The position numbers were made by a program, and so were the translations under genes. A DNA stretch of 39,125 nt from a bacterium. GTDB taxonomy: Bacteria > Calditrichota > Calditrichia > RBG-13-44-9 > J042. Positions within the stretch are counted from its first letter, which is position 1. Every line of letters starts with the position of its first letter. Under the pieces are notes generated by a model. It was not told the origin of the DNA. It did not search any database and saw only the letters and a program-made list of their open reading frames with translations. Of the stretch, positions 2,425 through 38,154 are shown piece by piece. The DNA lies in NCBI GenBank assembly GCA_015485355.1, contig WFTQ01000006.1:1-39125 (forward strand), in the 5' to 3' direction.

Positions 2425-2432
2425 ATATCGGT

Positions 2433-2568
2433 CGATCTTCGGGGCAGGGTGACTCCGTAAGTACGGGGAATTCCCGACCGGCGGTGAAAGCCCGCGACTC
2501 CCCCCTGTAGGGGGACTGAACCGGTGAAATTCCGGTGCCGACGGTAAAGTCCGGATGGGAGAAGATCG
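2433..2568 (+). ncRNA. FMN riboswitch (RFN element)
   Basis: This is a cis-acting aptamer for flavin mononucleotide. The P1 stem CGATCTTC (2433-2440) pairs perfectly with GAAGATCG (2561-2568). Between them are the hallmark RFN blocks GGGGCAGGGTGA, TTCCCGACCGGCGGTGAAAG with CCCGCGA, CCGGTGAAATTCCGG, and GCCGACGGTAAAGTCCGGATGG. It sits directly upstream of ribD, so FMN binding would repress the riboflavin operon. The expression platform is not a classical U-tract terminator; see the hairpin feature at 2585-2623. Confidence 0.97.
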
Positions 2569-2584
2569 GCATGACGGCGGAGTA

Positions 2585-2623
2585 ATACCCTCTTCCCTAT
2601 CAGAGGGTATGGTATTTCATGCC
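2585..2623 (+). promoter_or_regulatory. Candidate expression platform: two mutually exclusive hairpins
   Basis: ATACCCTC (2585-2592) can pair with GAGGGTAT (2603-2610). GGTATG (2606-2611), which overlaps the second arm, can instead pair with CATGCC (2618-2623). The two helices share 2606-2610 and cannot coexist. No T-run follows either one. Location between the aptamer and ribD suggests a role in switching, but this is inference. Confidence 0.35.
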
Positions 2624-2680
2624 CGCATCACCTCTCCCTGAATAGTGCCCCGAAATAAAGAATGTAGCGGAGTCGTTGTG

Positions 2681-3856
2681 GTGAAGGACAGGGATTTTAT
2701 GCAGCGGGCACTGGAATTAGCCATCATGGGGCGGGGTTATACGTCTCCCAACCCCATGGTCGGGGCCGTTCTGGTAAAACAGGGCCGCATCATCGGCCAA
2801 GGCTTTCATGAACGATACGGCGATAAACATGCCGAAATACGGGCCATTGAAAACGCCGTAGAGCCCGTAGAAGGGGCCACCTTATACTGCAACCTGGAGC
2901 CTTGCTGCCATACCATTCCCGGAAAAAAAACACCTCCCTGCACCCATCGGTTGATCCAGGAGCGCATCCGTAAAGTGGTGGTTTCAACCATCGATCCCAA
3001 TCCCCACGTCAGCGGCAGTGGTTTACGAGCTTTAAAAGCCGCCGGTATCGAAATTCAATCGGGTATCTTCGCCCGGGAAGCCACGCTGTTGAACGAGGCC
3101 TATTTTAAATTTATTCAAACCGGGGAGCCTTTTATTCATCTAAAAATCGCGCAGTCCCTGGATGGTCGTATTGCCACACGAAGCGGCGATGCCCGTTGGA
3201 TCACCGATGTCTCCGCCCGTCAGATGGTACAGGAGATGCGCCAGAACGCCGACGCCATTCTGGTAGGCATTGGTACGGTACTGGTCGATAATCCGCGTTT
3301 AACCTTGCGCACGAAAAACGGGCGGCAACCGTATCGGATTGTGCTGGATTCCCGCCTGCGCATCCCGGACCACGCCACTCTACTTCAGGATCAATTCGCT
3401 GACAGAACAATCATCATCACCTCCCCGGATGCGGACAAAGCCCGTCGGGAAGCCCTTGCTCACAGAGGAATTCGCGTGGAAGTTTTAAACAAAAACTCCA
3501 GCGAATTCATCGATCTGGACGAGCTGATGGTTTTCTTGCAACGGCTGGGTGTCGCCTCACTGCTGGTGGAAGGGGGAAGCGCTGTTTTTACTCGATTCAT
3601 CCAAAAAAGGCGCTTCGATAAACTGTCGGTTTTCATTGCGCCGATCCTGATTGGAGAAGGCCGAGAAGCCATCCAGGATTTACACATCAAACGACTCCAG
3701 GATGCCTTACGCCTGGAACTCGTTACTTTTCGAACGATTGGTCATCAAATGTTAGTCGAAGGATATCGGGATATTCATAGAACATTCGGGAAATTGGCAG
3801 AGGAATTGACATGTTCACAGGACTCGTGGAAGAAGTGGGAACCGTCGTTAAGTTAA
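2681..3856 (+). CDS. ribD: Bifunctional riboflavin biosynthesis protein RibD (deaminase/reductase)
   Basis: RibD performs two successive steps: deamination of the pyrimidinone from GTP cyclohydrolase II and NADPH-dependent reduction of its ribosyl side chain. The N-terminal cytidine-deaminase-like domain shows TSPNPMVGAVLV, the zinc ligand and proton shuttle in KHAEIRAI, and EPCC...PPCTHRL. The gap between the two zinc-binding cysteines is about 11 residues where 8 is typical. The C-terminal reductase domain has KIAQSLDGRIATRSGDARWIT, LVGIGTVLVDNPRLT and LLVEGGSAVFTRF. I chose GTG 2681 (391 residues) because AGCGGAG (2666-2672) sits 8 nt upstream; GTG 2678 and GTG 2645 are in-frame alternatives, the latter without a ribosome-binding site. 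The 3' end overlaps ribE by 46 nt. It is the first gene of the FMN-riboswitch-controlled operon. Confidence 0.95.
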   Translation: MKDRDFMQRALELAIMGRGYTSPNPMVGAVLVKQGRIIGQGFHERYGDKHAEIRAIENAVEPVEGATLYCNLEPCCHTIPGKKTPPCTHRLIQERIRKVVVSTIDPNPHVSGSGLRALKAAGIEIQSGIFAREATLLNEAYFKFIQTGEPFIHLKIAQSLDGRIATRSGDARWITDVSARQMVQEMRQNADAILVGIGTVLVDNPRLTLRTKNGRQPYRIVLDSRLRIPDHATLLQDQFADRTIIITSPDADKARREALAHRGIRVEVLNKNSSEFIDLDELMVFLQRLGVASLLVEGGSAVFTRFIQKRRFDKLSVFIAPILIGEGREAIQDLHIKRLQDALRLELVTFRTIGHQMLVEGYRDIHRTFGKLAEELTCSQDSWKKWEPSLS

Positions 3857-4452
3857 GCCCCATTTCCGGTGGATGGGCGTTTACCATCGAGGCCGAACAG
3901 GTGTTAGAGGATTTGGCCCCTGGCGACTCCATCAGCGTGGATGGCGTTTGCCTTACGGTGGTACATCGTAACCATTCCCATTTTACCGTACAAGCCGTGG
4001 GAGAGACACTGGAGAAAACGACCTTATCTTCCTATCGAGAGGGACAGAAGGTCAACCTGGAGCGGGCTTTACCGGTGGGCGGTCGTTTGGGAGGCCATTT
4101 TGTGCAGGGGCATGTCAACGGTACGGGTCGTATCACCCTCTGGCAGCAACGGGGAGATAATTTTTATTTGGAAATCCAGTTGCCTTCCTCACTACGGAAA
4201 TATGTGATCCTGGAGGGCTCCATCTGCATCGATGGGATCAGTTTAACGGTGGCCCGGCTTCACGGCGATCGTATCGGTATTAACATCATCCCTCATACGG
4301 CGCAGGTGACCAATTTGGGGTTTAAACATGTGGGAGATTCGGTGAACATCGAGGTCGACATGATCGCGAAATACATCGAGAACCTGCTCAAATGCTCCGG
4401 AGGGGCGGGTTCGGATTTAAACCGGGAAAAACTAAAACAATGGGGTTATTAA
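3811..4452 (+). CDS. ribE: Riboflavin synthase, alpha subunit
   Basis: The 213-residue enzyme dismutates two 6,7-dimethyl-8-ribityllumazines into riboflavin. It starts MFTGLVEEVGTV, the classic N-terminus, and has two tandem lumazine-binding barrels: residues 1 to about 97 with DSISVDGVCLTV, and about 98-200 with GGHFVQGHVNGTG and GSICIDGISLTVA. The duplicated S-x-x-[VI]-[DN]-G-[VI]-[CS]-L-T-V motif is visible in both halves. The ATG lies inside the end of ribD and follows AGAGGA, suggesting translational coupling. ribBA begins 3 nt after the stop. Length is standard. Confidence 0.96.
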   Translation: MFTGLVEEVGTVVKLSPISGGWAFTIEAEQVLEDLAPGDSISVDGVCLTVVHRNHSHFTVQAVGETLEKTTLSSYREGQKVNLERALPVGGRLGGHFVQGHVNGTGRITLWQQRGDNFYLEIQLPSSLRKYVILEGSICIDGISLTVARLHGDRIGINIIPHTAQVTNLGFKHVGDSVNIEVDMIAKYIENLLKCSGGAGSDLNREKLKQWGY

Positions 4453-4455
4453 GCT

Positions 4456-5700
4456 GTGTCCAACAATCATCGTCATCACGATATATTTGTTCCCATAGAG
4501 GAAGCGCTGGCGGCCTTGCGGCGCGGCGAGGTGCTGATTCTGGTGGATGATGAAGAGCGGGAAAACGAGGGCGACTTTATTGTGGCTGCCGAGAAGGTCA
4601 CCCCCGAAGTCATCAATTTTATGATCCAGTACGGCCGCGGTTTGGTTTGTGTCGCCCTTACCGAAGAACGGGCCCGACAGTTGAAGTTGAACATCATGGT
4701 GAACCAAAACACCGCGCTGCATGGGACAGCCTTTACGGTAACCGTCGATGCGGTGGAAGGTACCACCACCGGTATATCCGCCTTCGATCGGGCGCACACC
4801 ATACGATTATTGATCGATGAGCGCACCCGTGCCGAAGACCTGGCTCGTCCGGGACACATTTTTCCCTTGATCGCCGATCGCTGGGGGGTGTTAAATCGCC
4901 CGGGGCACACCGAAGCCACGGTCGACCTGGCCCGGTTGGCGGGCATGAAACCGGCCGGCGTGCTATGCGAAATCATCGACGACGACGGCAACATGGCCCG
5001 ATTACCGCGGTTGATCGAAATCGCCCGCGATTTCGGACTGAAAATCGTCAGCATCGCCGATCTGATTGAATACCGCCGGAAAAACGAGCTGCTCATTACA
5101 GAAGTAACCAACGTCCATCTGCCGACCGATTACGGCACCTTCCGGCTGCACCTTTTCGAAAGTAAAATGAATCCCGAAGAGTATCATCTGGCCCTGGTAA
5201 AAGGCCGGGTGCGGGGCGAAGAGCCTGTACGGGTGCGGGTGCATTCCGAATGCCTGACCGGGGACACCCTGGCCTCCAAACGCTGCGACTGCGGCAATCA
5301 ATTACACTTTGCCATGTCGGAAATCGAAACAGACGGAAAAGGCGTATTGTTGTACATGCGCCAGGAAGGACGGGGCATTGGACTGAAAAACAAGATTCTG
5401 GCCTACCGGTTGCAGGAAGAGGGACGCGATACCGTCGAAGCCAACGAAATGCTGGGCTTTAAACCGGATTTGCGAGAGTATTGGTTCGCTGCACAAATGC
5501 TGAAGGCCCTGGGAGTCAAGCGGGTACGCTTAATGACCAACAATCCCCGCAAGATGAATGATCTGGAACGTTACGGCGTAGAAGTGGTGGAACGGATTCC
5601 GGTGGTTATTCAACCCAATCCCATCAACGAACGTTATTTGCGTACCAAAAGAGAAAAGCTTGGACATTTGTTGTTTCTGGATCCACATCATCAGGACTGA
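4456..5700 (+). CDS. ribBA: Bifunctional 3,4-DHBP synthase / GTP cyclohydrolase II (RibBA)
   Basis: The protein has 414 residues. The N-terminal RibB domain (about 1-205) makes 3,4-dihydroxy-2-butanone 4-phosphate from ribulose 5-phosphate; DDEERENEGDF and RPGHTEATVDLARLAG are its metal- and substrate-binding blocks. The C-terminal RibA domain (about 206-400) opens GTP. It shows the zinc cysteines in SECLTGD...KRCDCGNQL, the MRQEGRGIGL motif, and MTNNPRKMNDLERYGVEVVER. The start is GTG at 4456, 3 nt after ribE. Both entry reactions of the pathway are thus supplied by one polypeptide, as in many bacteria. Both active sites look intact by motif. Confidence 0.96.
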   Translation: MSNNHRHHDIFVPIEEALAALRRGEVLILVDDEERENEGDFIVAAEKVTPEVINFMIQYGRGLVCVALTEERARQLKLNIMVNQNTALHGTAFTVTVDAVEGTTTGISAFDRAHTIRLLIDERTRAEDLARPGHIFPLIADRWGVLNRPGHTEATVDLARLAGMKPAGVLCEIIDDDGNMARLPRLIEIARDFGLKIVSIADLIEYRRKNELLITEVTNVHLPTDYGTFRLHLFESKMNPEEYHLALVKGRVRGEEPVRVRVHSECLTGDTLASKRCDCGNQLHFAMSEIETDGKGVLLYMRQEGRGIGLKNKILAYRLQEEGRDTVEANEMLGFKPDLREYWFAAQMLKALGVKRVRLMTNNPRKMNDLERYGVEVVERIPVVIQPNPINERYLRTKREKLGHLLFLDPHHQD

Positions 5701-5778
5701 TCTGTCCGTGATTCCGGAAACACCAGCACTCAAATCGGCTGCCATGGAGTGGCGAAAGTGAAAGGGAGAACCGACGAT

Positions 5779-6279
5779 ATGTCAAAAACGATTGAAGGAC
5801 GGCTGAGCGGAGAGGGCAAACGGTTTGCCATTGTTGTGGGGCGTTTTAATGAATTCATCACCGGTAAATTGCTGGAAGGAGCATTGGATTGTTTACGTCG
5901 GCACGGGACCGAAGAGCCGGACATAACGGTAGTGCGAACCCCCGGTTCTTTCGAGGTTCCCCTGGTGGCTCAGAAACTGGCTGGAAGCGGACAATTTGAT
6001 GCCATTATTTGCCTGGGAGCCGTTATCCGGGGGGCCACACCTCACTTCGATTACGTGGCCGCGGAAGTTTCCAAGGGCATTGCCCAGGTTGCATTACAAA
6101 GCGGGGTTCCCGTGGCCTTCGGCGTATTGACTACCGATACGGTGGAACAGGCGCTCGAACGCGCCGGAACAAAGGCCGGCAACAAAGGTTGGGATGCCGC
6201 CCTCTCGGCGCTGGAGATGGCCGACTTAATGACCCGTCTGGACGAATACACCTTGCAACGCGAAAAGCGGAATCCCTGA
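5779..6279 (+). CDS. ribH: 6,7-dimethyl-8-ribityllumazine synthase
   Basis: RibH condenses the RibB product with the RibD-derived diaminopyrimidine to form lumazine, the substrate of RibE. The protein shows [14 protein letters not shown], the substrate block [27 protein letters not shown] with the catalytic histidine region, and [21 protein letters not shown] chose ATG 5779 (166 residues) because GGGAG (5764-5768) lies 10 nt upstream; an in-frame GTG at 5749 would add 10 residues that do not resemble the family. It is the last gene of the rib operon, 78 nt after ribBA, and converges on a helicase gene. Confidence 0.96.
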
Positions 6280-8243: not shown

Positions 8244-10622
8244 ATGCGATCGCGCTCTATCGCAGGGTTTTTGATACTGATCTTTTTCCCCACCTTGTCC
8301 CTACTCGCAGTTAATTTTAAGATCGATATCATTACCGATGTCAACGATATAAACGACTATGTTATCGAGAACGATACGTTAATGGCCGCATCTACGGGAG
8401 GGTTGATCCTGATGCCCCTGCCTGCGGGTCCACCACGGGTGTTCACCACAGGGGATGGGTTTTTTTCCCAGAAATTTACCAGCATCATCCGGGATTCCCG
8501 CAATACACTCATTCTCGGCACCCTGGACGGCCTGGTCGGTTTTCTGGATTTGACTACCGGAACCCCGAGGACGGACATCAGTTTGAAGGGCAAAGAAATC
8601 GTGGATCTGCTGGTAGTGGAGGACACCCTATGGGTTTTGACCCGCGACATTCTGGCCGTCTACACCTACCTTCCGGAATTGCAACGGTATCAATTCATCG
8701 ATTTTTTCGAAAACTTCGGGTTGAGCGATATTGATTTTTTTGCGGTGGCCCGTTTTAAAGGGCACATCTGGTTGGGAAGCAACGCGGGCCTCTTTTATGC
8801 TCCATCGAACTTTCTCCGGTTCAACCTGAAGTCGGCTTCCTCCTGGAAGCGCATCACCACCGCCGACGGATTGTTATCGAATCGGGTACAGGATCTGGTA
8901 GCCGGCGATTCGGTGCTATATCTGGCCACGGCGGGGGGTATGGTGCAGTACGATTTTCAGACCCTGAAACCCATTACCGCAGGACTGGGCAACCGAAATC
9001 TGCTCCACATTCAATTTAAAAACAATCGGATCTGGGTGGCGGAAAAGTTCAAGATTTATTCCCTCAAAGGGAATGCCTTCGTGCTGGAATACACCTCTAC
9101 CCGCGGGCCGATCACGAATTTCTTTGTGGAAGCCAATGGGACCTTCTCCATTTCGATCATCGATAAAGGAATATTCTTCCCGAAAAAGAACCTTCAGCTG
9201 GTTTTCGATGGTCCCTCAGATAACTATCTGGGGAAGATTTTCCTGGATCGCCGGGGTCGATTGTGGTGTGTTTCGGGTAAAGTGGATGACGATCGTCAAA
9301 CAGGGTTGTTCCTGCGGCTCTCCGATGGCTGGCGAAATTACCGGTTTTTCGGTCCCGGTACCTGGCGCAGTATGTCTTCCACCAATTCCATCATGGAAGA
9401 CGACAACGGGAATATCTGGGTGGGCTCTTGGGGCGGCGGTGTGGTGATTTTCGATCCGGAACTCAATTTCCATTTTATCAATAACAACAACGACAGCGGA
9501 CGAGTGTGGATCACCTCCCCTGTTGACGACGATACCGTTTCGGTGATTGCTCCGACGGAGTTCCGGAATTTATTGGCCGGTGTCATCGCCAATCCCAAAT
9601 ACATTGTCGTTACCGATATGTTGCTGGATTCGGAAAGGGGCACTATCTGGATACTGAACAGCGAAGCGGTTAGCCGTAACCCCATTGTGCGTTTCCGGGG
9701 AACGGCGTTCGAACCGGCCCGGATTGCAGACCGGAACAGCTGGCAATATTTCGCCCAGCCGGTGGGCGGCCTACATTCCGACAAGCTCTATCGAGTGGCG
9801 CGCGACCCGTTTAATGACTTATGGATTGCGACTCAGCGCATTGGAGTGCTCCAGATTCGGATCAAAGAGAGCGGAGAACTGCTCTTTCACCAGATTGCCG
9901 AGGTGGACAATCTCAAAAGCAATTTTTGTCGCTCCATCGCTTCCGATCAGGATGGTTACGTCTGGATCGGCACCCGCCTGGGTCTCAACGCCTACCTCAA
10001 TGGTAGTTTGTACGACTTTCGGGAGGATTACCAGCCCATCGGCCTGCAGATCGAAGACATTTTCGTCGATTCGCGAAACAACAAATGGTTTGCGACCAAC
10101 GAAGGGATCAGTATTTTACGAGCCGGTGGCTCCCCTTTTGACAAGTCCAGCTGGATCCACATCGTTCCCATGGCCAGCGATAAGGCGGGTGAAAATGTGT
10201 TCTATGCCAACCTGCCTTCGGAAACCATTCATAGCATTTTCGTTGACGAAACCAACGGCGATGTTTATGTCAGTACCGATGCCGGACTGGCCATCATCCG
10301 CAGCAATCCGTTTGTGGGAACATTTGCCGATCTAAAGCGAGTCACCGTGGGGCCTAATCCGTTTTTCCTTTCCGATGAAGGGCAAGAGCGCCTCTATTTC
10401 TACAATCTCATTTCAGGAAGCCAAATCCGCATCCTGACGGTCAGCGGGGAACTGGTACGGGTTCTGGATCCGGAAAACTTTCAGGAAGTTCAGGGCGGGC
10501 AGGCCCAATGGGACGGACGCAATGAGAATGGTGATCCCGTGGCCAGTGGCATCTACGTGTTTCTGGTCACCACGGAGGACGGTATCTCCACCGCAGGGAA
10601 AATTCTACTGATTCGCAAATGA
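8244..10622 (+). CDS. Exported two-component-regulator-type beta-propeller protein with FlgD-like C-terminal domain
   Basis: The 792-residue protein starts with a signal peptide (MRSRSIAGFLILIFFPTLSLLA). A long run of short repeats of the ligand_gated/Reg_prop propeller type follows: IWLGSNAGLFY, LYLATAGGMVQYD, NIWVGSWGGGVVIFD, YVWIGTRLGLNAYL, NKWFATNEGISIL and VYVSTDAGLAIIRS. The last 90 residues (from VGPNPFF, with IRILTVSGELVRVL and WDGRNENGDPVASGIYVFLV) form a FlgD-like Ig domain of the kind that often ends secreted proteins in FCB bacteria, where it can serve in outer-membrane or type IX-like sorting. No histidine kinase, membrane anchor or regulator domain follows the propeller, so it is more likely a secreted or surface protein than a sensor kinase. 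The target and ligand are unknown. It stands alone. Confidence 0.8.
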   Translation: MRSRSIAGFLILIFFPTLSLLAVNFKIDIITDVNDINDYVIENDTLMAASTGGLILMPLPAGPPRVFTTGDGFFSQKFTSIIRDSRNTLILGTLDGLVGFLDLTTGTPRTDISLKGKEIVDLLVVEDTLWVLTRDILAVYTYLPELQRYQFIDFFENFGLSDIDFFAVARFKGHIWLGSNAGLFYAPSNFLRFNLKSASSWKRITTADGLLSNRVQDLVAGDSVLYLATAGGMVQYDFQTLKPITAGLGNRNLLHIQFKNNRIWVAEKFKIYSLKGNAFVLEYTSTRGPITNFFVEANGTFSISIIDKGIFFPKKNLQLVFDGPSDNYLGKIFLDRRGRLWCVSGKVDDDRQTGLFLRLSDGWRNYRFFGPGTWRSMSSTNSIMEDDNGNIWVGSWGGGVVIFDPELNFHFINNNNDSGRVWITSPVDDDTVSVIAPTEFRNLLAGVIANPKYIVVTDMLLDSERGTIWILNSEAVSRNPIVRFRGTAFEPARIADRNSWQYFAQPVGGLHSDKLYRVARDPFNDLWIATQRIGVLQIRIKESGELLFHQIAEVDNLKSNFCRSIASDQDGYVWIGTRLGLNAYLNGSLYDFREDYQPIGLQIEDIFVDSRNNKWFATNEGISILRAGGSPFDKSSWIHIVPMASDKAGENVFYANLPSETIHSIFVDETNGDVYVSTDAGLAIIRSNPFVGTFADLKRVTVGPNPFFLSDEGQERLYFYNLISGSQIRILTVSGELVRVLDPENFQEVQGGQAQWDGRNENGDPVASGIYVFLVTTEDGISTAGKILLIRK

Positions 10623-11077: not shown

Positions 11078-12340
11078 ATGAAAAGCTTTAAGAACTATCC
11101 ATCGGCGCTTCGGCAGGATGTGCTACAATGGATCAAGGATATCGGCGACCTGGATATTCTGGTCGGGATACCGGCGTTCAACAACGAGGATACGATTAAG
11201 AACGTGGTTGAAACGGTCGCTCAGGGACTGAAGGAATTTTATCCCGACGCCAAGGCGGCCATTCTGGTATCGGACGGGGGTTCCCTGGATGACACGCGGG
11301 AAACGGCGGAAAGCGCCCGGGTGCCCGAAGGCATCCACCGCAAAGTGACCATTTACCGGGGCACTCCCGGGAAAGGAACGTCCTTCCGAGCGATATTTGA
11401 ACTGGCCTCTCGGTGCAAAGCGGACGCCTGTGTCGTGGTCGATTCCGATCTGCGCAGTATCCAGCCCGATTGGATCCACCTGCTTACCCAACCCATTCTG
11501 GAACGTCAGGCGGATTTTGTGGCCCCCCTGTATGCCCGTCACAAATACGACGGTACGATCACCAATCATATCGTTTACCCCATTACCCGGGCGCTGTTCG
11601 GAAAAGACATTCGCCAGCCCATTGGCGGAGACTTCGGTTTCAGCGGTTTACTGGCCACTTTTTATGCCCAGCAGGATGTCTGGACCACCGATGTCGCCAA
11701 GTTCGGCATCGACATTTGGATGACCATCAGTGCCGTTGCCGAGGGATATCGGGTGATGCAGGCTCATCTGGGCGCCAAAATTCACGATCCCAAAGACCCG
11801 GCGGAAGACCTGGGCCCCATGTTTCAGCAGGTGGTCAGTACTTTGTTTTACCTGATCGGCCAATACGAGAGTTACTGGAAAAACATTCATCAAACGGTCA
11901 CGGTAGAGGTGGTAAACAATATTGAAGAAACTCCTAAGATTCCTCCCGTCGCTGTCACCCTGAGTAAAATGGAACACGAATTTCGGGACGGTTTTGAATA
12001 CTTTCGCCCCCTGTACGAAACGGTACTCTCCCTGGAGAATTTTACTCGATTAACCCAGTGTTATGAAGACCTGAAGGCCGGCAAAGGGCTGACGCTGGAT
12101 GCCGATTTGTGGAGTAAGATTCTATACGATTTTATATTCACCTACCAGTCCTGGTCCAGGAATCGCCGGCGTTTGGTCGATATAATTACGCCGCTGTATT
12201 TTGGGCGCGTAGGCACCTACTGCCGGGAGGTGGCCGAAATGACCAACGAAGAAGCCGAGGAAGTGATCCAGCGGCAGGCGAAGATCTTTGAACGCAATAA
12301 GGAATATTTGCTGGAAAAACTGGAAGTGTGGGAATCCTGA
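11078..12340 (+). CDS. GT-A fold glycosyltransferase (GT2/GT81-like, GpgS-like)
   Basis: The 420-residue cytoplasmic protein has a nucleotide-sugar transferase core. DILVGIPAFNNEDTI (26-40) is the start of the GT-A Rossmann fold, VSDGGSLDDT follows, and the metal-binding DxD is DSD (122-124, in VVVDSDLRSIQPDWI). PIGGDFGFSG (181-190) is a candidate acceptor loop. GTPGKGTSFRAIFELA (95-110) resembles the block found in glucosyl-3-phosphoglycerate and mannosylglycerate synthases. The C-terminal third is helical and unassigned. Resemblance to enzymes of compatible-solute or polysaccharide-primer synthesis is suggestive only, and no matching phosphatase is next door. The gene following it, 63 nt on, encodes an ArsA-type ATPase. 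Confidence 0.75.
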   Translation: MKSFKNYPSALRQDVLQWIKDIGDLDILVGIPAFNNEDTIKNVVETVAQGLKEFYPDAKAAILVSDGGSLDDTRETAESARVPEGIHRKVTIYRGTPGKGTSFRAIFELASRCKADACVVVDSDLRSIQPDWIHLLTQPILERQADFVAPLYARHKYDGTITNHIVYPITRALFGKDIRQPIGGDFGFSGLLATFYAQQDVWTTDVAKFGIDIWMTISAVAEGYRVMQAHLGAKIHDPKDPAEDLGPMFQQVVSTLFYLIGQYESYWKNIHQTVTVEVVNNIEETPKIPPVAVTLSKMEHEFRDGFEYFRPLYETVLSLENFTRLTQCYEDLKAGKGLTLDADLWSKILYDFIFTYQSWSRNRRRLVDIITPLYFGRVGTYCREVAEMTNEEAEEVIQRQAKIFERNKEYLLEKLEVWES

Positions 12341-12403
12341 GATCATGCAGGGAGGCATTGCTCTCCCAATATAACCATTTACCGGGAAGGAAATACCCAG
12401 CCA

Positions 12404-13588
12404 ATGGACAAACGGGTTTTATTGTTTACCGGGAAAGGCGGTGTGGGGAAAACCACCTGCGCTGCGGCGACCGCCCTGCAGGCCGCCGATAGGGGTTACC
12501 GCACGCTGGTGATGTCCTCCGACCCGGCACACAGCCTTTCCGATGCATTCCACCAGCCCATCGGCCCTGAACCCGTGGAAATCTATCCACGCCTGTTCGC
12601 CCAGGAAGTGGATCTCTACTACTCCATGAAAAAATACTGGGGCAACATCCGGGATTTGCTATTGATGGTGTTCAAATGGCAGGGGGTTCACGACATCGCC
12701 GCCGAAGAGCTGGCTGCCATTCCGGGAATGGGCGAGGCATCGGCGTTGCTCTGGCTGGACCTCTTCTATCACTCAGATGCCTACGATTTAATTATCGTAG
12801 ACAGTGCACCCACCGGCGAAACGCTGACGTTTCTAACCCTCCCCCAGGTTACCGAATGGTGGCTGACCAAGGCTTTTCCCTTCCAGAGTCTGATCTTCCA
12901 GACGGTGGGGTTTGGGGTGCGCAAAACCACCGGTATCCCATTGGACAAAGGCTACAAAGAACTGAAAGACCTCTTCGAAAAACTGCGCACCATCCATCGG
13001 GTATTGAGCGATGCTCGAATCAGTTCCGTGCGTCTGGTATTGAATCCAGAAAGAATGGTGATCCAGGAAGCCAAACGAGCGTTTACCTACCTGCAATTAT
13101 ATGGCTACGGGGTAGACGCCGTTATTGTGAACCGAATTTTCCCCGGGGAATTGCAAGAATCCTCCCAATGGGCCCGATACCTCCAGGCCCAGGAACAATA
13201 TCTCAAAGAAATCGAGAACAGCTTCTCCCCCTTACCGATCTTCAAAGTGCCGCATCTTCGGGAGGAGGTCTTCGGTATAGACTTATTGAAAAAAGTGGGG
13301 CAGGAAATTTATGGTGACACCAATCCCGCCCAGGTGTTTTATAACCAACCCACCTACCGAATCGTTAAGAACAAAAACCATTTTGAACTTCGGATCAACC
13401 TTCCTTTTGTTACAGAAAAAGATTTGGAAGTTCACCAATTCGGAGAAGAACTGGTGATTCAGATTCAAAATCAGCGACGGAATTATTTTTTACCCCGTTT
13501 CCTGGAATATTACCGGATAAACCACTACCGGTTAAGAGACCACCAACTCTGTATCCGTTTTGTGGAGCGGCGGAAAGACCGTCAATAA
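12404..13588 (+). CDS. ArsA/Get3-type ATPase with C-terminal HSP20-like domain
   Basis: The 394-residue protein opens with the deviant Walker A GKGGVGKTT (10-18), then switch I DPAHSLSDAF (about 40-49) and switch II DSAPTGETLTFL. These place it in the ArsA/TRC40 (Get3) branch of the SIMIBI ATPases. Residues about 316-394 (from YRIVKNKNHFELRINLPF through LVIQIQNQRRNYFL) form the small-heat-shock-like domain found fused to ArsA homologues. Cysteines are nearly absent and the paired metalloid-binding cysteines of true arsenite pumps are not seen, so arsenite export is unlikely. A role in handling hydrophobic or tail-anchored proteins, or a metabolic role, is inferred. The preceding glycosyltransferase gene ends 63 nt upstream, so the two are likely co-transcribed. 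Converges on the GT-C gene. Confidence 0.85.
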   Translation: MDKRVLLFTGKGGVGKTTCAAATALQAADRGYRTLVMSSDPAHSLSDAFHQPIGPEPVEIYPRLFAQEVDLYYSMKKYWGNIRDLLLMVFKWQGVHDIAAEELAAIPGMGEASALLWLDLFYHSDAYDLIIVDSAPTGETLTFLTLPQVTEWWLTKAFPFQSLIFQTVGFGVRKTTGIPLDKGYKELKDLFEKLRTIHRVLSDARISSVRLVLNPERMVIQEAKRAFTYLQLYGYGVDAVIVNRIFPGELQESSQWARYLQAQEQYLKEIENSFSPLPIFKVPHLREEVFGIDLLKKVGQEIYGDTNPAQVFYNQPTYRIVKNKNHFELRINLPFVTEKDLEVHQFGEELVIQIQNQRRNYFLPRFLEYYRINHYRLRDHQLCIRFVERRKDRQ

Positions 13589-33487: not shown

Positions 33488-35548
33488 ATGGCAACGTCAA
33501 GCAATGTATTGGACGTCATTCAAAAGAAATATTTCGACAAGGAGTTCAAGGCGCTCAGCTGGAGCGGGACGTTTCAGGAGTATCTGGAGATTGTTCGTAA
33601 AAATCCGGCCGTGCTGCGCACCAGCTTCCAGCGGCTATATGACATGATTGTCTCTTTCGGCACCGAGGAATACGAAGACTCCCGCAAAAAAATCGTCCAC
33701 TACAAATTTTTCGATGACCCGATCGAAAACGGTAAAGACGCCATTTATGGTCTGGATGCTTTTCTGATGCGGCTTATGAACATCATCAAGGCGGCGGCTT
33801 ACCGCTACGGCCCCGAACGACGGGTGATCCTGTTGCACGGACCGGTCGGCAGCTCCAAGAGTACCATTGTACGACTGATGAAAAAGGGCCTGGAATATTA
33901 TTCTCGCACGCCGGAGGGGGCCCTGTACTCCTTCGAATGGATCAACATTCCCAAATTCTTTACCGATCCGGAAAGCTCCGCACGGGAAAATGTTCCCTGC
34001 CCCATGCACGAAGAACCGCTGCACCTGATACCTCAGGAAATCCGGGGCGATTTTCTTAAAGATCTGATCGGAGACAAGGCGTCCATTTACCTGGTGGAAG
34101 GCGAACTCTGCCCCTCCTGCCGACAGATTTACAGGGAAATGGGGAATATTTATAACGGGGACTGGAAAAAGGTACTGGAACATATTCGGGTCAAGCGCAT
34201 TCTGTTGTCCGAAAAAGATCGCATCGGCATTGGCACCTTCCAACCGAAGGACGAAAAAAACCAGGATTCCACCGAGTTGACCGGGGACATCAATTACCGC
34301 AAGATCGCCGAGTACGGTTCCGAATCCGATCCCCGCGCCTTTAACTTTGACGGCGAATTCAACATTGCCAATCGGGGGCTGATTGAATTCATTGAAGTCT
34401 TGAAACTGGATGTGGCCTTTTTGTATGATCTGCTGGGCGCCAGCCAGGAACACAAGATTAAACCCAAGAAATTCCCTCAGACCGACATTGATGAGGTGAT
34501 TATCGGCCATACCAACGAACCGGAATACAAGAAATTACAAAACAACGAGTTTATGGAAGCGCTGCGGGACCGAACGGTCAAGATCGATATTCCCTACATC
34601 ACCAAATGGAGCGAAGAGATCAAAATCTATAAAAAAGATTTTAACCATCAAAAAATCCGGGGCAAACACATTGCTCCGCACACGATCGAGATGGCGGCCA
34701 TGTGGGCGGTGCTGACCCGCCTGGAAGAACCCAAGAAGGCGAATCTGACCCTGGTACAGAAACTGAAACTGTACGACGGGAAATTGATCCCCGGTTACAC
34801 GGAAGACAATGTCCGCGAGCTACGCAAAGAGGCTGTCCGCGAGGGTCTGGAGGGAATCTCTCCTCGATATATCCAGGACAAAATCTCCAACGCCCTGGTG
34901 AAAGATACCGAGGAGCCCTGCGTCAATCCCTTCATGGTCCTCAATGAGCTGGAGAGCGGTCTGGATCACCACAGCCTGATCAGCAACGAGGAACAGAAAA
35001 AGCGCTATCGGGAATTGTTGGGGGTGGTCAAACGCGAATACACCGACATCGTGAAGAATGAAGTCCAGCGGGCTATCAGTGCCGACGAAGATGCCATTAA
35101 ACGATTGTTCTCCAACTATATCGATAACGTGAAGGCGTATGTGCAGAAAGAAAAGGTCAAGAACAAATACACCGGCGAGGATGAGGAGCCCAATGAAAAG
35201 CTGATGCGCTCCATTGAGGAAAAAATTGATATCCCTGAAAGCCGCAAGGACGATTTCCGCCGCGAGATTATGAACTACATCGGTGCTATGGCTCTGGAGG
35301 GCAAAAAGTTTGAGTGGAACAGCAACGAGCGTCTGGCAAAGGCGTTGGAGTTGAAACTGTTTGAGGATCAAAAGGACAGCATCAAACTGTCCACCCTGGT
35401 ATCCTCCGTAGTGGATAAGGAAACGCAGGAAAAGATCGATGTGGTCAAGAGCCGGATGATCAAGCATTACGGTTACTGCGAAACCTGCGCCACCGACGTG
35501 CTGAATTATGTCGCCAGTATTTTTGCCCGGGGAGACCTCAAAGAGTAA
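33488..35548 (+). CDS. prkA: PrkA-type serine protein kinase / AAA+ protein (YeaG-like)
   Basis: The 686-residue protein belongs to the PrkA family, known as YeaG in E. coli, with roles in stress and nitrogen-starvation responses and in Bacillus spore formation. An AAA+ module has Walker [10 protein letters not shown] (118-126). The family-specific [12 protein letters not shown] (C171, H174) is followed by CPSC (208-211), a potential metal site. The C-terminal half (about 395-686) matches the PrkA C-terminal domain, with charged regions near 540-600. The ATG at 33488 follows CAGGAGGT. It is the first gene of the prkA-yeaH-spoVR group; yeaH begins 15 nt after its stop. Whether it acts as a kinase or an ATPase remains debated for the family. 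Confidence 0.96.
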
Positions 35549-35563
35549 AGCGGGGACACAGCC

Positions 35564-36670
35564 ATGTTAATGAACATGCAGAACGATTACAATCGCTTTC
35601 GGCAAATCATCAAAGGAAAAATAAAGCAAAACCTCAGGAAGTATATTTCCAACGGCGAAATGATCGGTCGGAAGGGCAAAGACCTGATCAGCATTCCCCT
35701 TCCCCAGATCGATTTGCCGCGTTTTCGGTACGGGGATAACGGTCAGGGTGGTGTGGGCCAGGGAGACGGCGAACCCGGCGATCCACTTACTCAGGGGGAA
35801 GGCGAAGACGGAGCCGGCCAGGCGGGGAATTTACCCGGTCAGCACATCCGCGAAGTGGAGCTGACCCTGGAGGAATTGGCCGAGATTTTGGGCGAAGAAT
35901 TGGAACTGCCCAACATCGAGCCCCGGGGTAAGAAACAGATTGTGTCCGAAAAAGACCGCTATAGCGGCATTCGGCGGGCGGGACCCGAATCCCTGCGGCA
36001 TCATAAGCGCACGTTTAAAGAAGCCCTCAAACGCCAGCTTATCTCGGGACAGTTCAATATCGAAAGACCCAAAATCATCCCTATTCGAGACGACTACCGC
36101 TACCGCTCCTGGAAAACGGTGGCTAAACCCGAAAGCAACGCCGTGATTCTTTATATGATGGACGTCTCGGGTTCCATGTGGGACGAACAAAAAGAAATCG
36201 TGCGCCTGGAAACGTTCTGGATCGATACCTGGCTGCACTACCAGTATAAAGGCGTGGTTACTCGATATATCATTCATGACGCTCAGGCCCAGGAAGTCGA
36301 TCGGGAAACCTTCTTTACGGTGCGCGAAAACGGGGGGACGGTGATTTCCTCCGCCTACGAATTATGCAGCAAGATCATCGAAAAGGACTACCCGGCGGAT
36401 GAATGGAATATATACGCTTTCCATTTTTCCGACGGGGACAACTGGTCCCGCGATGACAATCAATACTGCGTAGACATTCTGGAAAAATACATTCTACCCA
36501 AGGTGAATCTGTTTGGTTACGGACAGGTAGAAAGCACCTACGGCAGCGGAGAGTTTTTCGATTATCTGGAAGATTGTTTTGGCGAACACGAAAGAGTGAT
36601 TCTTTCGCACATTCCCGACAAAGAGGCCATTTATGATTCCATAAAAGAATTCTTGGGGAAAGGGAAATGA
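35564..36670 (+). CDS. yeaH: YeaH/DUF444 family protein with VWA-like domain
   Basis: The 368-residue protein has the DUF444 layout: N-terminal conserved section (1-55), Gly-rich linker (about 57-92, [13 protein letters not shown]), and a VWA-like domain (about 190-360) with the MIDAS motif DVSGSMWDE (DxSxS, 200-204) and the second metal-site region [12 protein letters not shown]. coli YeaH has 427 residues, so this one is somewhat shorter. DUF444 proteins are encoded with PrkA and SpoVR and are thought to act with them, and the MIDAS suggests metal-dependent protein binding. The stop overlaps the spoVR start by 4 nt (ATGA), indicating translational coupling. Confidence 0.94.
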
Positions 36671-38154
36671 TTACCAAAGCAGACATTTTAGCCATTCAGC
36701 CCGAAATCGAAGGCTTTGCCCGGGAATTCGGCCTGGATTTTTTCCCGGTGATCTTCGAACTGGTGGACTATGACACCATGAGTCAGCTGGCGGCGTATGG
36801 CGGCTTCCCCATTCGCTATCCCCACTGGCGTTTTGGTATGGAATATGATCAGCTTTCCAAAGGGTACCGCTACGGACTCCAAAAAATTTACGAGATGGTC
36901 ATCAATACCAATCCTTGCTATGCGTATTTAATGGAATCCAATTCCCTGGTGGATCAAAAACTGGTCATGGCCCACGTATACGCCCATTGCGACTTTTTTA
37001 AACACAATTTCTACTTTTCCCATACCAATCGAAAAATGATTGATGAAATGGCCAATCACGCCATTCGCATCAATCGATATATCGACCGGTACGGGCTGGA
37101 CACGGTGGAGAATTTCATTGACATTTGCCTTTCACTGGAGAATCTCATTGACTACCATTCTCCGTACATCAAGCGACGGAAAGAAACCGATACCGGGGCC
37201 GACAGCGAACAGCAGCCCCGCATCAAGCGTCTGCGGAGCAAGAAGTACATGGAGAAATTCATCAATCCTCCGGAATTTATCGAAGTTCAGCTTAAGGAAT
37301 TGGAGGAGAAGAGGAATCAGGAACTCAAGCCTTTTCCGTCCCAACCGGAGCGGGATGTCTTGCTGTTCCTGCTGGAAAACGCTCCCCTGGAAAACTGGCA
37401 ATACGATGTACTGGGCATCATCCGGGAAGAGGCCTACTATTTTGCTCCTCAGGGGATGACCAAAATCATGAACGAAGGCTGGGCCACGTATTGGCATGCC
37501 ACAATTATGACCCAGAGAGCGTTGGAACCTTCCGAGGTGCTGGATTATGCCGATCATCACTCGGGCACCGTGGCCAATCATCCCGGCCGCTTGAATCCCT
37601 ACCGAATCGGCTACTTGCTTTTTAAAGATATCGAAGACCGCTGGAACAAAGGTCAGTTTGGTAAGGAGTGGGAAGAGTGCACCGATTACCGGGAACGGAA
37701 AAATTGGGATCAACAACTGGGATTGGGACGGCAGAAAATTTTCGAAGTCCGCAAGTTGTATAATGATGTCACCTTCATCGACACTTTTTTAACCGAAGAT
37801 TTCGCCCGGGAACACAAACTGTTCTCTTTTGCATATAATAAAGAAAACAAAAGGTACGAAATCGAGTCGCGGGAATTTTACATGATTAAGAAGCGCCTGC
37901 TACAGAGCTTGACCAATATGGGGCAGCCTATAATATCCGTTGTTGATGCCAACTTCAAGAACCGTAACGAGTTGTATTTGATGCATCATTTTGAGGGGAT
38001 TGAACTGGATGCCGGTTATGCCACGGATACCCTTGCCAATCTCTATAAAATCTGGAAACGCCCGGTGCACATCCAAACGGTGGTGAATGAAAAGGCGACT
38101 GTCCTCAGCTTCGACGGGAAGGAGTTTCGTAATCAAACGATCTCGGAAAACTAA
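36667..38154 (+). CDS. spoVR: SpoVR family protein (YcgB-like)
   Basis: The 495-residue protein belongs to the SpoVR family, named for a Bacillus spore cortex gene and present as YcgB in E. coli. Family hallmarks include FEWVDY-like [40 protein letters not shown], the [10 protein letters not shown] motif and [23 protein letters not shown]. The HE/WATYWH and H-rich segments may bind a metal. Length is typical (about 470-510). It overlaps yeaH by 4 nt and is followed 19 nt later by a small unknown gene. Spore formation is not implied in a Gram-negative host; stress or stationary-phase response is the more likely context. Confidence 0.96.

Follow-up and report, generated by a model that had tools for sequence, protein, structure and literature searches.

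A putative sugar-glycerate glycosyltransferase and a Get3d-like ATPase in Calditrichota: adjacent genes with probably independent functions

In the 39,125-nucleotide stretch of a Calditrichota genome analysed here (contig C6, hereafter the window), a gene for a GT-A glycosyltransferase (GT) is directly followed by a gene for an ATPase of the ArsA/Get3 family, which raises the question whether the two products work together. A preliminary description of the locus had read the genes as an apparent operon and proposed a linked function, e.g., in glycan-coupled membrane protein handling or in polysaccharide primer metabolism. The window genome (3.44 Mb in 114 contigs, 98.7% complete) indeed carries both genes where the description placed them, on the plus strand: GT at 11078-12340 (420-aa ORF) and the ATPase at 12404-13588 (394-aa ORF). 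Upstream of GT, on the same strand, a PorZ-like two-component-regulator propeller protein is encoded at 8244-10622 (PF07494; NF052228 with 157 bits, below the cut-off of 260). This gene adjoins GT in all three members of the family in which this particular GT occurs (G000, G026, and G027), with its other copies at 10740-13115 of L068 and 3746-5215 of L069, the latter being the G027 copy, which is cut by the contig end, and is a better conserved neighbour of GT than the ATPase. Further off in the window, an FMN riboswitch (106 bits) at 2431-2570 precedes ribD and ribBA (Pfam; 2645-6279), so that the region 2431-6279 looks like an ordinary riboflavin operon, and genes for a PrkA kinase and a SpoVR-like protein with a third ORF between them at 33488-38154 presumably represent the familiar prkA-yeaH-spoVR arrangement. 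An Rfam scan of GT, the ATPase, and their surroundings resulted in no match.

Regarding transcription, the gap between GT and the ATPase in the window comprises 63 bp (12341-12403), in which no terminator-like site was listed and folding revealed no hairpin beyond chance (z 0.30); this arrangement allows co-transcription across the gap in the window species. In the sister species, the corresponding gap measures 237 bp. Here, a hairpin rich in GC with a run of eight T (U8) behind it starts some 15 nt downstream of the stop codon of GT; it was read by eye, and the stretch was then folded (-15.2 kcal/mol, z -1.91, a value equalled or surpassed by 8 of 200 shuffles). This hairpin, the stem of which is imperfect, is missing from the output of the consensus scan, which comprised two terminator-like sites, one of them on the strand of the genes, and a promoter-like site on the opposite strand. 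The apparent operon is hence the weaker part of the preliminary description: the common strand and the short gap of the window agree with it, but not the longer gap and its terminator-like hairpin in the sister species.

Searching 40 genomes of the phylum, we found a match to GT (E < 1e-40) in 18 and an orthologue of the ATPase (at least 67% identity over about the full length) in seven; all other matches to the ATPase query had E values of 4e-29 or worse, and none reached the HSP20-like tail. Both genes occur together in three genomes, and independent presence would give about three. They are adjacent in two, namely the window genome and the other member of the same genus. Outside the genus, G027 of the same family has the nearest GT, which is 74% identical and likewise lies beside the PorZ-like gene; the position downstream of it (L069) is occupied by another gene, which runs on the opposite strand, and the ATPase was not found in this assembly, which is 86% complete. 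In G025, also of this family, the ATPase and the GT relatives, which are more distant here, are encoded on separate contigs.

A scan of named genomes confirmed at least 558 relatives of GT, and among the matches listed, 80 loci were kept, which come from a wide range of bacterial phyla and from one archaeal MAG (L088 being the G027 contig again, and L120 belonging to Desulfatibacillum alkenivorans DSM 16219). At least 1.5 kb of downstream DNA was available for 74 of them and 5 kb or more to either side for 40. Neither the ORFs nor tblastn revealed the ATPase in the DNA around these 80 loci. Likewise, no GT was found beside the tailed ATPase in 18 loci of 3.8-16.7 kb each (13 wider loci and the five remaining loci of the phylum), nor in the short loci L191-L193 (G064, G066, and G074). 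A link through shared partners was also considered and rejected, the 18 ATPase loci having in common only one two-member neighbour cluster, and a literature search on ArsA/Get3 and glycosyltransferase operons in bacteria and on tail-anchored proteins returned nothing that matched. The preliminary description had suggested such a neighbourhood survey for GT/ArsA-HSP20 pairs and had made the linked function depend on conservation beyond close relatives; the survey yielded no pair at either set of loci and leaves the arrangement confined to one genus, which speaks against the proposed link.

The phylogenetic histories of the two proteins differ as well and count against a linked function in the same way. 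In a quick, unrooted tree with a long-branch warning for L061, the ATPase groups with its order (seven rows, support of 100), and the ATPases of this order lie inside 20 tailed proteins on one side of a branch (support of 100), i.e., the window ATPase together with 19 others including cyanobacterial and Chloroflexi ones. In a similarly quick tree of GT, the trio of the family sits among Myxococcota, Dadabacteria, Zixibacteria, and others, apart from the other GT groups of the phylum, and the own-phylum labels need four changes, all forced by starred branches. Judged from this placement, the GT gene probably came in from outside, which would make its position next to the ATPase recent and local. 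The adjacency in a single genus is therefore probably a by-product of the acquisition of a GT gene from another phylum.

With respect to its identity, the ATPase revealed conserved domains for ArsA_ATPase (PF02374, 289 bits, cut-off of 24.3) and ArsA_HSP20 (PF17886, 69.1 bits), both over their cut-offs, and matched the GET3/ArsA/TRC40 model TIGR00345 with 243.9 bits (cut-off of 135). It is the only strong ArsA match in the window genome (289.8 bits); four others are partial and reach 24-36 bits, over the loose Pfam cut-off. The P-loop GKGGVGKTT (residues 10-18, 12431-12457) is invariant in all seven orthologues of the phylum, and the HSP20-like or alpha-crystallin domain occupies residues 325-386 (13376-13561). 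Since C19 and C383 are the only cysteines of the protein, neither a CxxC motif nor the cysteine set of a metalloid site is possible, so that the preliminary description of an ATPase without metalloid-type cysteines and with an HSP20-like tail holds. An end-to-end alignment with the Nostoc protein All4481 (3igf/8egk; E 8.3e-21) covers residues 5-390, and the C-terminal 85 residues alone found All4481 as the only credible PDB match (E 3.1e-5; next 0.63). The models NF050088 (NosAFP/Get3d; 122.2 bits, cut-off of 325) and TIGR04291 (101 bits, cut-off of 650) scored below their thresholds. Structure prediction from seven close orthologues was poor (pLDDT 48.4), and this model was left out of the fold search. 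By its sequence, the ATPase is an alpha-crystallin-tailed Get3/ArsA protein that can be called Get3d-like, and by analogy it would probably bind hydrophobic membrane-protein segments under ATP control.

The distribution of such tails was followed with PF17886 in 50 GT-bearing genomes (50 of the 77 loci first listed). A match over the cut-off was obtained in 47 of them, mostly in open frames of about 150 aa that look like ordinary small heat-shock proteins, and only the long frames were taken further. Wider DNA was examined around 13 clear tailed ATPases (L208-L220), with the weaker candidates of G064, G066, and G074 and the second G087 copy left out. Such Get3/ArsA ATPases with an alpha-crystallin tail are encoded by the named sulphate-reducer strain Desulfatibacillum alkenivorans DSM 16219 (L212) and by MAGs assigned to Acidobacteria, Aminicenantes, Dadabacteria, and further groups; several of these lineages, among them D. 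alkenivorans, Aminicenantes, and Dadabacteria, are not known for photosynthesis.

For GT, the sequence itself gave a general assignment, a Pfam Glycos_transf_2 domain (PF00535, 41.6 bits), and no cut-off of a curated family was reached that would define its activity; the best curated neighbour is GpgS (NF010496, 67.4 bits against a cut-off of 262). Its AlphaFold model (pLDDT 91.7, pTM 0.90) was more informative. Foldseek placed the mannosylglycerate synthase (MGS) of R. marinus first (E 1.3e-16), and VIA-align also ranked MGS (2y4k) first with a Z of 35.9 over 359 residues (rmsd 3.2), the alignment covering residues 27-413 and thus the full length, with the helices of the C-terminal part. GpgS folds followed with a Z of about 20.9 over 225 residues. 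In a comparison of the GT family profile with the PDB, GpgS came out with E 8e-13 and MGS with E 9e-8.

Most of the aligned residues point in the same direction. An Asp-Ser-Asp metal/nucleotide motif at residues 122-124 (11441-11449) aligns with that of GpgS, and His236 (11783-11785) is the counterpart of GpgS His258 and MgS His217. Among 16 aligned members of the GT family, G98 and K99 of the PGK loop, D122, D124, D212 of the donor pocket, and H236 are invariant, while the Pro of the PGK loop and the middle Ser of Asp-Ser-Asp vary. The position of the ribose-binding Glu (GpgS Glu54, MgS Glu11) is taken by Asn36 in the window GT, and in the alignment by Asn in nine and Glu in seven of the 16. 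Roles of the PGK loop, the Asp-x-Asp motif, the Asp/Glu of the donor pocket, the ribose-binding Glu, and the His near the metal are described for GpgS and MgS in PMC2581804. The PIGGD donor loop was tried as a marker of a glucose or mannose donor and proved uninformative, as GpgS of M. hassiacum also has PLGGE.

The gene neighbourhoods of the relatives gave further hints. Within 5 kb of GT, a relative of gpgS, the phosphatase, glycerate 2-kinase, mggS, glgA, or mscS was detected at 40 of the 80 loci, and one of the first four, i.e., the glycerate-solute families, at 30; a tblastn recount gave 42 and 32, respectively. By family, each named from a single representative, we counted GpgS at 20 loci, the mannosyl-3-phosphoglycerate phosphatase family at 20, GlgA at 10, MscS at six, glycerate 2-kinase at five, and mannosylglucosylglycerate synthase at four. 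None of the six families was found within 5 kb at the other 40 loci, including several nearest relatives (L095-L099), and at the same score none was found at any of the 18 ATPase loci. A single cluster of G037 contains gpgS, a partial GT frame, and the phosphatase. In-phylum relatives of GT (L070, L071, and L073) adjoin or lie near genes that fall into one cluster, one member of which (9421-10353 of L071) encodes an MscS-type channel (PF00924) and would fit an osmotic role. Directly before GT in gpgS/phosphatase clusters, L157 (8797-9960) and, with a relative, L158 encode a 387-aa protein, the L157 copy of which matched neither a Pfam family at 0.001 nor an NCBIfam model at 1e-10.

At the window locus itself, none of these solute-gene neighbours is present. 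The genome harbors two of them on another contig, C89, namely a GpgS-like gene of full length (358.7 bits, the strict cut-off of 700 not being reached) and, about 17 kb from it, a phosphatase gene over the cut-off (247.7 bits); GlgA was likewise found over the cut-off on a contig other than that of GT.

Based on the MGS fold, the residues shared with GpgS and MGS, the loci of the relatives, and the gpgS-like and phosphatase genes of its own genome, we read GT as a Ggs-like solute enzyme. It would be a cytoplasmic GT-A enzyme of the retaining type, which transfers a hexose, likely glucose, from a nucleotide sugar to glycerate or a close relative, resulting in an anionic compatible solute of the glucosylglycerate or mannosylglycerate kind, and it would act in a single step alongside the two-step route via GpgS and a phosphatase that is encoded elsewhere in the genome; donor, acceptor, product, and osmotic role are what we infer from these data. 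Points against this reading are the score of GT below any curated cut-off for such an activity, Asn36 at the position of the ribose-binding Glu, and the half of the GT loci, as well as the window locus, at which no such neighbour was seen. The resemblance to glucosylglycerate-type enzymes noted in the preliminary description is thus borne out by fold, sequence profile, and gene context of the relatives. Taken together, we regard it as likely that GT, as an enzyme of the glucosylglycerate/mannosylglycerate type, and the Get3d-like ATPase are functionally independent neighbours. That the two would instead form a linked unit in this genus, for instance for the glycan-coupled handling of membrane proteins, might be argued from their common strand, the short gap, and the adjacency kept in the sister species; given that the pair was not found outside the genus among 40 phylum genomes, 80 GT loci, and 18 ATPase loci, that a terminator-like hairpin separates the genes in the sister species, and that histories differ and co-occurrence shows no excess, such a unit appears highly improbable.

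Two other readings concern the reaction of GT alone. It may start a polysaccharide by providing a glucosylglycerate-type primer that is lengthened by a glycogen-synthase-like enzyme, for which GpgS sets a precedent in mycobacterial methylglucose lipopolysaccharide (PMC2674218), and the GlgA relatives near GT are in all ten cases the next gene on the same strand. However, GlgA and a sugar-glycerate synthase may merely share ADP-glucose, relatives of the phosphatase and of gpgS are each twice as common at the GT loci, and the GlgA of the window genome is encoded away from GT, so that we consider the priming role rather unlikely. About equally doubtful is that GT does not form the first bond but attaches a further sugar to glucosylglycerate or to the phosphorylated form (yielding mannosylglucosylglycerate or glucosylglucosylglycerate): genes for GpgS and the phosphatase, which already account for glucosylglycerate, are often found close to GT, and mggS-like genes accompany it at a few loci, but the full-length fold match is an enzyme that makes mannosylglycerate, and no NCBIfam model of a second-step enzyme matched GT, though the library may hold none. 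Returning to the Ggs-like reading, a broader proposal can be made tentatively and with more doubt than confidence, namely that GT is one of a large clade of glycerate glycosyltransferases (at least 558 relatives) for which the libraries searched contain no curated model. This clade would provide bacteria with an additional route that runs parallel to that of GpgS, needs no phosphatase, and leads to a solute of the glucosylglycerate type or to a polysaccharide primer, and it would move between phyla by gene transfer.

Overall, GT and the ATPase are each members of an already known kind, and a joint function is without evidence. Our analysis thereby removes the false lead of a glycan-coupled ATPase pair and gives GT a concrete putative role in the metabolism of osmolytes or primers. 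A further outcome is a set of tailed Get3 examples outside the phototrophic lineages central to the published work, for which no novelty is claimed.

Compared to known systems, GT shares with R. marinus MGS (GT78; 2bo4, 2y4k) the fold over the whole length with the C-terminal helical part and the profile match, while identity amounts to only 18% and the equivalent of Glu11 is Asn36. With GpgS (GT81; 3e25, 4y6n, 7pdo), it has the GT-A domain, the PGK loop, Asp-Ser-Asp, and the loop His in common, but it scores below the curated cut-off, aligns in fold over about 225 residues in contrast to 359 for MGS, carries Asn36 at the Glu54 position as well, and comes from a genome with a separate GpgS-like gene. 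Persephonella marina reportedly carries gpgS, gpgP, and ggs in one operon, with Ggs as a single-step glucosylglycerate synthase; this arrangement resembles the gene context of many relatives of GT, but not that of the window locus, the corresponding genes of this genome lying on another contig. Turning to the ATPase, the ArsA of the arsenite pump belongs to the same ATPase family and has metalloid cysteines, whereas the window protein has a single ATPase domain, two cysteines, and a TIGR04291 score far below the cut-off. The closest likeness is to Get3d (All4481/NosGet3d and AtGet3d), a name given in PMC10248533 to the architecture of an ATPase with an alpha-crystallin tail, the family lacking CxxC. 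In that work, which stresses photosynthetic lineages, Get3d is described as binding tail-anchored proteins and hydrolysing ATP. The window ATPase agrees with it in the P-loop ATPase, the C-terminal alpha-crystallin domain, and the missing CxxC, and differs in scoring below the NosAFP cut-off of NF050088. It keeps the P-loop and the switch-like motifs DPAHSL and DSAPTGET, and according to PMC10248533 such P-loop and switch motifs are kept in green-bacterial Get3d and not in NosGet3d.
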